A stretch of 64,000 nucleotides of DNA from positions 496,001 to 560,000 of the forward strand of contig NZ_JANAVO010000001.1 of assembly GCF_024213555.1 (NCBI RefSeq), read 5' to 3'. This document shows, one piece after another, positions 46,542 to 49,601 of this stretch (its first letter is position 1; the number at the start of each line of letters is the position of its first letter). Source of the stretch: Allokutzneria sp. A3M-2-11 16. Lineage in GTDB: Bacteria; Actinomycetota; Actinomycetes; Mycobacteriales; Pseudonocardiaceae. A program made the position numbers and the translations under genes. Below the pieces are notes generated by a model. It ran no database searches. It saw only the letters and a program-made list of their open reading frames with translations, and was not told the DNA's origin.

Positions 46542-47537
46542 TCAGAACAGCGCGCTGGCCAGGTTGCGGCGCGCGAGCATGACCCGCTGGTCGTCCGCGG
46601 GGAACAGCTCGAACAGGTCGACGAGGTGCTGCCGCACGCGGTTGCGGTCCTCGTCCGCGGTGCGGCGCACGGCCGCGATCAGCCGGGCGAACGCCTCGTC
46701 GACCAGCTGCACGGCGATCTCCGCGTCGGCGGCGGCGAGCTGGGCGTCGACGTCGTCGGGGTTCGCGTCCGCCTTCTCGATCGCACCCGAGTCGGCCTGC
46801 TCGGCGCGCGCGGTGAAGCGCACCTGCGCCAGCGCGGCCTTGGCGTCCTCGTTGCCGGGCTCCGCGGAGAGGATCTGCTCGTAGGCGGCCTCGGCCGCGG
46901 CGTAGTCGCCCTTCTCGAAGGCGTCCTCGGCGGCAGTGAACCGGGGGTCCTCCGGCAGCTCGGCCTCGTCGGCGGCGCCACCACCGGCGGCTGCGCGCTC
47001 CTCGGCGGCCTTGATGCCGGGCAGGCGGTCCCGCAGGGCTTGGACCAGGGAGGCGATCCACTGGCGCAGCTGCGCTTCCGGCTGCAGCCCCGGGACGCCG
47101 TCGAGCACCTGGCCGCCCGCGATGGCCACGGTCATCGGCACCGACTGCACGCCGAACGCCTGCGCGATGCGCGGGTTGGCGTCGATGTCCACGCTGGCCA
47201 GGATCCAGGTCCCGCCGCTCTCCGCGGACAGCCGCCGCAGGATCGGGGACAGCTGCTGGCTCTCCTCGCTCCAGCTCGCGTGCAGGTCCACCACGACCGG
47301 CACCTCGAGGGAGCGTTCGAGCACGTCCTGCTGGAAGGTCGTCTCGCTGACCTCGACGACCCACTCACCGGAGGTCGCGGGCGCCGCACCGGGTGCGGCG
47401 GGCGCGGCGGCGGGACGGCTCTGCTGGCGGGCGGTGGCCTCCGCCCGCGCCTTGACCGCCGAAAGATCCACGGCACCGGCGAGCGCGGCGGAGAGGGCGG
47501 CGTTCTGGCGTCGATCTGGCCTCGTCACGCCCTCCAT
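46542..47537 (-). CDS. YbbN/CnoX-like thioredoxin-TPR protein without CXXC
   Basis: A 331-residue protein. After an Ala/Pro-rich linker, a thioredoxin fold ([20 protein letters not shown]) has S-E-E-S where active thioredoxins have CxxC, so it is not an oxidoreductase. The C-terminal half carries TPR-like helices ([20 protein letters not shown]) and ends in the YbbN-type domain ([20 protein letters not shown]). YbbN/CnoX proteins are holdase chaperones that pass clients to GroEL or DnaK. In M. tuberculosis Rv1324 is similarly near the glgB-glgE-glgP genes. Its start overlaps the Abi-type gene by 13 nt. Confidence 0.85.
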
Positions 47538-48172
47538 CCTGACACGCCGCCGACAGCGCCGGGGACCCAGCACCCGGCCCCGACCCAGCCGCGTGCGGAG
47601 GGGCAGATCCACTCCGCGACGACCAGCGCGTCGGCCCGCAACCGGCGCAGCGGGCGGTTGTGCACCGGCTCGTGGTGCGCGATCCGGTTCCGCAGCTCGT
47701 GCAGCCCGGCGACCTTGTCGTGCACGTCCTTGCGCATGCCGTTCAGGTGGGGGAACGCACCGCGCAGGCACGGCAGCCACAACGTCCGCTCGTACCTCGC
47801 GGCGAGCAGGTACCGCCAGAACCCGAACGACAGCTCGGCGACCACGCGTCCAGGGGTCTCGACCCGCCCGTTCCTGGCGATCCTGACCTGGGCGGCAGCG
47901 ATGTCCTTCCGCGCCTTCTCGGTCAGCAGCTGTTCGAGCGGGACGTACCAGTCGGCTCGGCCGGTCCAGTCCGCGAGCGCGGAGTGCATCGCGTTGCGCA
48001 CCAGCACTTCGACGTGGCCGAGCGTTCTCCAGAAGGCCGCGGCGATCTGGGAGTTCCGCTCGTAGAGCGCCAGCGCCGCCGCGAGGTCTCCCCTGTTCGC
48101 GGCGCGGTAGGGGGCCAGTCGCTCCGCCGAGAAGCGCTTCTCCAGCAGCTCGTTCAGCGTGGGGTTTGTCAT
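47525..48172 (-). CDS. Abi-family HEPN-domain protein (putative RNase toxin)
   Basis: A 215-residue all-alpha protein of the Abi_2-like family. [12 protein letters not shown] contains the HEPN RxxxxH motif (R161, H166), expected to form an RNase site on dimerisation; [13 protein letters not shown] (R59, H63) is a second RxxxH-like pair. [19 protein letters not shown] is the family core. A Gly/Trp-rich C-terminal tail follows. The ATG overlaps the stop of the small repeat ORF (ATGA), so translation is coupled. Abi/AbiF relatives are abortive-infection or toxin proteins; an antitoxin or guide partner would be expected upstream. RNase activity is inferred. Confidence 0.8.
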
Positions 48173-48396
48173 GGCTGGGCGACTCCGGTAGAGTCTTTGA
48201 CGAAGACCCCGGTCGCCCCTATCCCTCGGGATATGCCGCCGGGGTTCCGTATTTTCCGGGGCGCCACGCCGCCGTTGTTGATCATCGGGACGACTCCGGT
48301 AGAGTCTTTGACGAAGACCCCGGTCGCCTCTGTCCTTCGGGATATGCCGCCGGGGTTCCGTACTTTCCGGGGCGCTTCTCCGCCGCCGTTGCTCAT
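48169..48396 (-). CDS. 75-aa protein of two 37-residue repeats, coupled to the Abi-type gene
   Basis: The ATG at 48396 has a perfect AAGGAG 6 nt upstream. The product consists of two repeats, each starting with Met ([20 protein letters not shown] and [20 protein letters not shown]) and each ending [12 protein letters not shown]. The 111-bp period equals 37 codons, so the frame stays open through both. Of about ten differing bases in the compared coding region, nearly all change the amino acid. A CCGGAG ribosome-like site precedes both the second Met and the Abi ATG. Its stop overlaps the HEPN gene. Possible roles: antitoxin, or translated leader. No family recognised. Confidence 0.6.
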
Positions 48397-48402
48397 CGGG
48401 GC
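48181..48402. repeat. 111-bp tandem direct repeat, two copies
   Basis: Units 48181-48291 and 48292-48402 are about 90% identical (11 mismatches by eye). Each starts GACTCCGGTAGAGTC (a small GACTC/GAGTC hairpin) and includes GACGAAGACCCCGGTC and GGATATGCCGCCGGGG. They coincide with the repeated small ORF on the minus strand; they could also be a structured RNA. Confidence 0.9.
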
Positions 48403-48408
48403 TCCTTC

Positions 48409-48439
48409 GCGTGACGTGTCCGATGTGGACTCGTCACGC
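48409..48439. promoter_or_regulatory. Inverted repeat upstream of the repeat ORF/HEPN unit
   Basis: GCGTGACG (48409-48416) and CGTCACGC (48432-48439) form an 8-bp dyad 13 nt upstream of the small ORF start. This is a likely operator of the unit or a leader hairpin. Confidence 0.5.
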
Positions 48440-48475
48440 TAGCGCCACCCCCTGACACTCACCGTTGAGCGACGT

Positions 48476-48492
48476 TTTGCCATGGTGGCAAA
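48476..48492. promoter_or_regulatory. 17-bp palindrome TTTGCCA-TGG-TGGCAAA
   Basis: A perfect 7-bp inverted repeat with a 3-nt centre lies between the NTF2-like remnant and the small ORF, about 80 nt upstream of the latter's start. It is suited to bind a dimeric regulator. Confidence 0.5.
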
Positions 48493-48497
48493 GGAAA

Positions 48498-48716
48498 TCA
48501 GCCGACGAAGCCGTGGATGTCATCGATCTCGGAACCGGAGTCGAAGGTCTCGCCGGTGACCGCACCGCCCTCGTCGGAGTCGTAGTCGATCGCGATCCGC
48601 CACCGGCCGTCGTTCTTGCGGCAGAACGCGTGGAAGCGCCCGTGGAACACCCGCTCCTCGCCCCCCAGCCGGTAGACACCGCGTTCGCTGGCGAGGTCAG
48701 GAGCGAACGCCGCGAA
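48498..48716 (-). pseudogene. C-terminal remnant of an NTF2/SnoaL-like protein
   Basis: On the minus strand a frame without start codon reads GVYRLGGEERVFHGRFHAFC, then RKNDGRWRIAIDYDSDEGG, ending HGFVG and TGA (48500-48498). The hydrophobic/aromatic pattern and DGRWRI are those of the last strands of SnoaL-like/DUF4440 proteins. It directly follows the TGA of the SCO6745-family gene in the same frame. A truncated gene, or the tail of a formerly fused protein, is likely. Confidence 0.6.
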
Positions 48717-49601
48717 TCACGTCACAAGGTGCAGAGTCATGCGGTTGTTGTGGAAGACAGGGTTGCCCGCGTACAACGTTCGCGCGATCGGGAGCATCAG
48801 CTCCTCGAAGCGCCGCGTCGCTTCTTCGCCGATCGCGAGCCACGGCAGGGTCGCGCCGTCGTCGGTGCGCTCCTCGCACCACGCGCGCAACTGCCTGCCC
48901 GCTGCGGTGAGCGCTCCGCCCTCGATCAGCCCGCGCTCGGTGAGCCGATCGATCGCCGCGTGCCACTCCTGCTCCGACCAACTCCGGAACCCGAGCATGG
49001 CCTCCTCGGTCACCGCGTGGTCGGCCGCGTAGATCGCCAATCCCTCGCACGGGTCCAGGCCCGCGGCGACCAGGGTGGCGTTGTGCCCGTCACCCCTGGA
49101 CTCGCGCAGGATCGTGGTCGCGTGCCACAGCGCCAGGTGCGGCTGGTCCGGCCAGGGCAGCGCGGCGTTCGCGGCGGCGAGGGGACGGCCGACGATCGGC
49201 GCCGCCGCGGCGGCCGCACGCCCCAGCTCGGCCAGTTCGGCGATCTCCGGCCCGGCCAGGAACTCCGCACCGAGCAGGCGCCGCAGCGCGCCGTCCACCC
49301 CGGCCAGCCGGGTGGCCAGGAACGTCTCCGCGTCGGCGAGCGCCCAGGCGTCCGGCAGCGCCCTGTGCACCATTCGCGGAGGGAAGTTGTAGAAGGTGGC
49401 GATCACCAGTTCCGGGCTCGCCTCGCCGAAAGGCGCCGCGCGCTGGGCGAAGTAGCCCATCCAGCCGCCCTTGCAGCCGAGCCCGTCGGCCGCGGCCCGC
49501 GACTCCGGCGTGAAGTAGGTCGGCACGTGGTAGTTCTCGAACAGCGACCACAGCCTGCGCGCCGCCGCACGGCGCTCCTCGACGGTTCCGATGCTCAGCA
49601 C
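48717..49601 (-). CDS. SCO6745-family protein
   Basis: A 294-residue protein of the SCO6745 family, with HVPTYFTPESRAAADGLG, GGWMGYFAQRAAPFGEASPE and FYNFPPRMVHRALPDAW near the N-terminus and a winged-helix-like C-terminal half (AIDRLTERGLIEGGALTAAG). The function is unknown. The GTG at 49601 was chosen as the family start. The last residues (NNRMTLHLVT) run in frame into an NTF2-like remnant after the stop, so the natural C-terminus may have been altered. Confidence 0.75.
   Translation of the reverse strand: MLSIGTVEERRAAARRLWSLFENYHVPTYFTPESRAAADGLGCKGGWMGYFAQRAAPFGEASPELVIATFYNFPPRMVHRALPDAWALADAETFLATRLAGVDGALRRLLGAEFLAGPEIAELAELGRAAAAAAPIVGRPLAAANAALPWPDQPHLALWHATTILRESRGDGHNATLVAAGLDPCEGLAIYAADHAVTEEAMLGFRSWSEQEWHAAIDRLTERGLIEGGALTAAGRQLRAWCEERTDDGATLPWLAIGEEATRRFEELMLPIARTLYAGNPVFHNNRMTLHLVT

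Follow-up and report, generated by a model that had tools for sequence, protein, structure and literature searches.

Known AbiF systems and the Allokutzneria locus

The known AbiF-RNA pair has reportedly been proposed as the ancestor of Cas13. In Clostridioides difficile phages, a HEPN toxin with an RNxxxH motif (AbiF) is accompanied by a small structured RNA upstream, RCd22, which holds two motifs and includes the helices P1 and P2 and a GC-CUCU stretch. In the part of PMC12373285 that was available, RCd22 is co-transcribed with abiF in the same direction (most transcripts stop before the gene) and binds AbiF, neutralising it in cis and in trans. PD-T4-5 is a plasmid-borne distant relative of AbiF/D giving abortive infection (Abi) defence, and the available part of its description mentions no RNA partner (Vassallo et al. 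2022, PMC9519451). The locus analysed here lies in a 64,000-nt stretch of Allokutzneria sp. A3M-2-11 16 (contig NZ_JANAVO010000001.1, positions 496,001 to 560,000; this whole stretch is called the window and its numbering is used throughout). Like AbiF/RCd22, it combines a HEPN gene (hepn) of the RNxxxH type with a small structured RNA upstream that has P1, P2 and the GC-CUCU stretch; RCd22 holds two motifs and the window locus has two RNA genes. The locus is probably a toxin-antitoxin module of the phage-defence type, made of an AbiF-like HEPN RNase and a divergent structured RNA antitoxin. Its principal parts are:

47525..48172, - strand: HEPN open reading frame (ORF), AbiF/Abi_2-like, 215 aa, with RNRIAH; predicted RNase toxin
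48202..48261, + strand: RNA gene copy 1, hairpin P1-P2-P3 followed by a T-rich tail; start placed from the -10 box
48313..48372, + strand: RNA gene copy 2; match of the covariance model R1 (see below) at 48311-48371 (+), E 6.0e-17

The RNA gene, its structure, strand and promoter geometry, its association with HEPN genes and the fold match of the protein were all computed here. The conserved signal at the locus is a gene for a small structured RNA, encoded on the + strand and divergent from hepn. It was missed in a preliminary description of the window, which had recognised the HEPN gene with its RNRIAH motif, found again here at 47525-48172 (-), and had guessed at a toxin-antitoxin or defence module with a repeat peptide as partner.

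The HEPN protein

The RxxxxH HEPN catalytic motif was invariant at R161, N162 and H166 among 57 aligned proteins, and 49 of these 57 matched Pfam PF07751 (Abi_2) at E<=0.01. The HEPN model showed the AbiF fold: it fitted the PbAbiF-ncRNA complex (PDB 8vz6; Zilberzwige-Tal et al., Cell 2025, known via PMC12373285 and PMC12737573) at 14% identity, the comparison being made on the protein only. A PADLOC scan of the window protein returned PD-T4-5 and AbiD matches, the best being PD-T4-5 (E 2.8e-7); with the PD-T4-5 profile PDLC04038, the best stretch covered residues 109-173 only. An alphaproteobacterial member reached E 3e-16 against the PD-T4-5 profile in PADLOC. The PD-T4-5 family searched against the genome gave nothing at E<=0.001, and the PDB sequence search with the HEPN protein gave nothing below E 0.02 and no entry named HEPN or Abi. 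The fold fit, the PADLOC matches and the partner element found beside the homologues (see below) support the earlier suggestion that HEPN belongs to a toxin-antitoxin or defence module. The hepn 3' end (47525-47540) overlaps the start of a co-oriented thioredoxin-TPR gene, so the two genes may be co-transcribed.

Structure and strand of the RNA

Upstream of hepn and on the opposite strand, the following order recurred: TAnnnT, about 7 nt, GAAGAC or GTAAGC, a GC-rich helix and a CYCUG stretch, followed by a short hairpin (with UUCG loops in some), the helix partner and often a T-rich tail. An automatic choice of the RNA went wrong at some loci, where it took terminator hairpins; the seeds were then chosen by hand (43 loci and the 2 window copies, and 19 more), so that clear cases were favoured. 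The 45-sequence alignment, from which R1 was built, contained the helices P1 (CCCCGG/CCGGGG), P2 and P3, and the CYCU stretch that separates P2 from P3 was conserved. In this alignment 95.7% of the cells paired, 9 of the 15 pairs varied on both sides, and none of 500 shuffled alignments matched any of the five measures; RNAalifold predicted 12 pairs, all within P1-P3. A second, longer form of the RNA (19 sequences) had the same order and a longer P2. R1 matched copy 1 at 48200-48260 (G000:C11:544200-544260 +, E 6.3e-16), both window copies being among the sequences that built the model.

On the chosen strand, the 45-sequence alignment held 28 G-U pairs against 6 A-C mismatches (8/1 in P1, 9/5 in P2, 11/0 in P3), and the second RNA set held 13 against 4; the opposite strand would reverse these counts. 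Since the picking score counted G-U in P1, the P2 and P3 counts (20 against 5) are the fairer ones. A -10 box (TAnnnT) began 13 or 12 nt upstream of the RNA in 71 of 84 promoter rows and lay within the slot in 74 of them (control slot: 0/84), and a TTGACA-like hexamer (at least 4/6 matches, 16-19 nt spacing) was also present in 42. After removal of near-copies the box was kept in 64/72 rows, and in the non-seed loci placed by R1 it lay in the slot in 39/39. In the window, the promoters were located as follows:

48166..48194, + strand: promoter of RNA copy 1 (TTGTCA 48166-48171, 17 nt, TAGAGT 48189-48194)
48278..48305, + strand: candidate promoter of RNA copy 2 (TTGATC 48278-48283, 16 nt, TAGAGT 48300-48305), read from the sequence and absent from the promoter-scan list

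The scan of 48100-48520 returned the copy 1 promoter as the sole promoter-like site (shuffles: mean 0.0, standard deviation 0.2).

These strand results bear on a cis-acting leader, i.e. a hairpin on the hepn mRNA strand working as a riboswitch or attenuator, a role that RCd22 partly has for abiFCd. RCd22 sits in the toxin transcript (PMC12373285, available part), the hepn mRNA seems to traverse the element in Allokutzneria, and 276 nt on the hepn strand gave a z of -2.89 with RNAfold (0/200 shuffles as good). The G-U/A-C asymmetry and the fixed-distance -10 box, however, both point to the other strand. The RNA also starts close to the hepn start (median 68 nt to the HEPN match at E<=1e-7), and at 10/82 loci a separate hepn promoter with leaderless geometry was suggested in the gap, which would leave the element outside the hepn leader. 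We regard the cis-acting leader as improbable.

The same promoter geometry could instead mean that the RNA gene controls hepn by transcription interference or antisense pairing, and not as a protein-binding antitoxin. The opposed promoters are separated by a few tens of nt, at 8/82 loci the opposite -10 elements overlap with leaderless geometry, and at the window locus the RNAs run antisense to the ORF that precedes hepn. Conservation of sequence and fold nevertheless extends past the promoter, and the GCCUCU stretch occurs also in the Rfam abiF consensus; interference alone would not require either, and this explanation is an unlikely one. A bidirectional leaderless promoter was dropped as a general feature, being found at 8/82 loci.

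Association of the RNA with HEPN genes

For the comparison of loci, 80 named HEPN-homologue loci were used, the best 80 of 536 (mostly from Actinomycetota and Proteobacteria, with single loci from Cyanobacteria and Acidobacteriota). R1 matched 77 of these best 80 at E<=0.05, and all 83 matches lay opposite the hepn strand. Thirty-eight of the loci had helped to build R1; among the remaining 42, 39 matched. The matches in L081, L110 and L103 were weak (E 0.0018 to 0.03), and L052, L086 and L109 gave none at E<=0.05. The preliminary description would have expected its repeats beside homologous Abi genes too. For the RNA this is the case, one copy being usual and two a local duplication; since R1 also matches loci of HEPN homologues from other phyla, the repeat cannot be called random.

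HEPN homologues were present in 90 of 297 same-family genomes. Neighbours were counted for R1 matches listed in these genomes down to E 2.3e-4 only. At E<=1e-7 there were 76 R1 matches; 63 of them had a HEPN match within 700 nt, and every one of these was divergent from it, with a median gap of 68 nt from RNA start to HEPN match. The corresponding numbers were 53 matches, 47 beside HEPN and 47 divergent at E<=1e-10, and 107, 72 and 72 at E<=1e-4. Beyond the sources of the model, R1 matched 52/64 at E<=1, counting same-family loci and several near-copies of seeds or of each other. A match upstream of the gene and on the opposite strand was found in 5 of 10 chosen plasmid loci and in 8 of 41 viral contigs.

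Two RNA copies in tandem next to HEPN were also seen in a Phytoactinopolyspora (L064 1647-1710 and 1852-1917) and in a Thermomonosporaceae metagenome-assembled genome (L065 1808-1861 and 1919-1974, the second copy being weak, E 0.0045). The window genome holds a second module (G000:C11:2590216-2590740; L141 1178-1741), with an RNA match (E 1e-5) divergent from a HEPN gene that is split over two overlapping frames; it is probably a decayed copy.

Points against the RNA antitoxin

Several results weigh against a module of AbiF-like RNase and RNA antitoxin. The window HEPN protein scores 23.1 bits with PF07751, under the Pfam cut-off for Abi_2 (25.6). The seed-picking score counted G-U (and not A-C) in P1 and favoured a -10 box, so that both statistics are biased on the seeds; on the seeds alone, the box was in the slot in 33/43. 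In two loci (L185 and L202) R1 also matched the second strand, more weakly, so the strand of the model does not by itself prove the strand of the RNA. R1 missed 12 of the 64 sources outside the model, 5 of the 10 plasmid loci (including two PD-T4-5 loci of E. coli) and 33 of the 41 viral loci; some of the missed loci have a longer P3 and others may lack the RNA. With the A1 profile, 13 of the 76 strong RNA matches had no HEPN neighbour. Finally, the Rfam abiF family RF03085 had no match here, and both RF03085 loci that were checked carry the RNA co-directional with the gene; the window RNA being divergent, the AbiF analogy crosses an architectural difference.

The neighbourless matches were inspected (17 in all: 13 at E<=1e-7 and 4 weaker; L128-L140, L142-L144 and L147) and none had a HEPN gene by the A1 profile. 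They may be orphan antitoxins, or chance matches at the weak end. Some retain a -10-like box, L135 has a short HEPN-like remnant beside the RNA match, and L138 and L139 resemble one locus in two species.

The tandem repeat and the 75-aa ORF

The RNA genes lie within a duplication and are overlapped on the - strand by a small ORF:

48177..48398, no strand assigned: tandem 111-bp duplication carrying both RNA genes, 2 units (48177-48287 and 48288-48398)
48169..48396, - strand: 75-aa ORF, antisense to both RNA genes and running into the hepn start; possible leader ORF
48402..48407, - strand: AAGGAG, Shine-Dalgarno-like, 5' of the leader ORF, invariant in three genomes

These elements had been described correctly before. 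In the present analysis the repeat units are 90% identical (two copies within 47000-49500), the TGA of the ORF overlaps the hepn ATG, and the codon differences between the repeats are mostly non-synonymous (9, with 1 synonymous). No further copy of the 111-nt unit was found in the genome except one weak match (E 4.95). The two other Allokutzneria genomes compared (G001 and G002) have one unit each, so that among the three genomes the tandem copy is confined to that of the window; the flanking genes are alike in both relatives, as far as the 3-kb loci reach.

An alternative is that translation of the 75-aa ORF yields a peptide whose 37-residue repeats neutralise HEPN, as a peptide antitoxin, or couple its translation, as a leader peptide. 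All three genomes preserve the AAGGAG, a start codon and the ORF's overlap with the start of hepn, and indels have not closed the frame. A loose frame test (an ATG or GTG frame over the RNA with its stop within 6 nt of a possible hepn start) was positive at 19/81 homologue loci, so that an open frame antisense over the RNA is, by sequence, not peculiar to Allokutzneria; the other 62 loci had no such frame. For the two genus relatives, non-synonymous (dN) and synonymous (dS) divergence were 0.135 and 0 in the leader ORF against 0.117 and 0.379 in hepn, and the codon changes numbered 9 non-synonymous and none synonymous in the ORF, compared with 38 and 42 in hepn (Fisher p 0.003); the same codon contrast between the two repeats and hepn of the window and G001 gave p 0.005. 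The peptide thus shows no purifying selection, on small numbers. When peptide homologues of the repeat unit were searched in the 297 family genomes, 10 of these genomes gave a match at E<=0.05: three were the genus itself, and the others (E 0.009-0.042) were taken as chance, so nothing better than E 0.009 lay outside the genus. With a conserved RNA on the opposite strand as well, the peptide is very improbable as the partner, and translation of the ORF for coupling alone is possible. The preliminary description had added that the repeat might act as RNA: this part holds, with the strand being the other one.

The hepn transcript leader

Upstream of the leader ORF, the following features were noted:

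48411..48437, no strand assigned: dyad GTGACG..CGTCAC, operator or 5' hairpin of the hepn mRNA
48436..48456, - strand: block GTCAGGGGGTGGCGCTAGCGT, candidate distal hepn promoter, identical in three genomes
48476..48492, no strand assigned: palindrome TTTGCCATGGTGGCAAA, operator-like

Both dyads had been pointed out before, and both recur in the two genus relatives. By eye, the arms of the first are kept in G001 and both are compatibly changed in G002, and in the second G001 differs by one change, on the centre side. The sequence TTTGCCANNNTGGCAAA (48476-48492) has 4 exact sites in the genome including its own and 4 more with one mismatch (reversed control: 0), possibly a small regulon. At four of the remaining places, nearby ORFs have matches to a D-Ala-D-Ala carboxypeptidase, an amidase and a binding protein, TetR and GGDEF, and an ABC ATPase.

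The block at 48436-48456 ends in TAGCGT and has one genome match (one mismatch allowed). Together with the AAGGAG it lies beyond the RNA genes and is identical in the three genomes, and no TAnnnT was seen in the genus on the hepn strand in the interval separating the starts of the RNA and of hepn, as read from the sequence. If the block is the promoter, the hepn mRNA leader includes the complement of both RNAs; in Allokutzneria this mRNA seems to run antisense through the RNA genes, and an antisense layer on the hepn leader is possible. The block may resemble the RecA-NDp consensus (PafBC-type promoter), but the pattern has a single match in the genome, and such a promoter is a lead only. A 19-nt direct repeat (47512-47530 / 48421-48439) was treated as chance.

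Comparison with Rfam abiF and PD-T4-5

RF03085 gave no match at E<=5 in 47400-49000 of the window; at E<=10 none was obtained from 36 relatives or from 151 nt of L100. At the thresholds tried, the RNA matched no Rfam family. Among 13 control loci, RF03085 matched phiC2 (37.6 bits) and Cytobacillus (36.5 bits, just below the cut-off of 37), both co-directional with the Abi gene, and none of the other 11; R1 matched none of the 13. The RF03085 consensus has P1, a 3-bp P2 ending in GC and then CUCU, and the window family has P1, a P2 ending in GC and then CUCU. This shared core, with its common GCCUCU stretch, is possibly homologous. Unlike RCd22, which the available part of PMC12373285 gives as co-directional and co-transcribed, the window RNA is divergent with its own promoter. 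The locus further differs from the AbiF system in lacking an RF03085 match and in its shorter protein (215 aa against 287). In type III toxin-antitoxin systems the RNA lies upstream in the toxin's transcript; here, judged from the letters, it is on the opposite strand.

The two E. coli plasmid loci L206 and L209 gave no R1 match, and the L206 protein matches the PD-T4-5 profile at E 1.5e-132. By eye, both show TAGAGT, 7 nt and then a hairpin divergent from the gene, as in the window; this may be an unrecognised PD-T4-5 RNA or merely a terminator.

The function proposed here is of a known kind, and the layout and the RNA sequence are new, with priority uncertain: literature titles and abstract openings held no divergent RNA with Abi_2 HEPN genes and no actinobacterial AbiF RNA, the Cell 2025 AbiF-Cas13 survey not being covered.

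Proposed mechanism and implications

For this module we infer transcription, binding, toxicity, neutralisation and defence. The toxin would be the AbiF-like HEPN RNase and the antitoxin an RNA of about 60 nt with three stacked helices and its own promoter on the opposite strand. By analogy with AbiF, the RNA would bind the HEPN dimer and block the RNase. Because a promoter of its own would drive the RNA from the opposite strand, the RNA supply need not follow toxin transcription, and the separate promoter could hold the RNA in excess. If the RNA supply fell or the RNA were displaced, the enzyme would be freed, RNA would be cut and growth would stop. The duplicated RNA gene of this species would raise the antitoxin dose, and the toxin mRNA would start upstream and run antisense through both RNA genes.

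A broader reading, which we advance tentatively and hold to be rather doubtful, is that a widespread RNA family, without an Rfam match at the thresholds tried, marks a divergent branch among HEPN toxins guarded by RNA (AbiF/PD-T4-5-like, and related to the proposed ancestor of Cas13). With the RNA genes having come to lie within the toxin leader in Allokutzneria, the RNA would act twice: on the protein (type III-like) and antisense on the translated leader (type I-like).

HEPN Abi genes are common and are usually annotated as single genes. If many of them carry a divergent RNA, a gene cloned alone may mislead, and RNA-controlled toxins would be more widespread in Actinomycetota and Alphaproteobacteria than annotated. 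R1 makes such RNA partners searchable, and a branch with a separately transcribed RNA would be an arrangement worth comparing with CRISPR RNA (crRNA).
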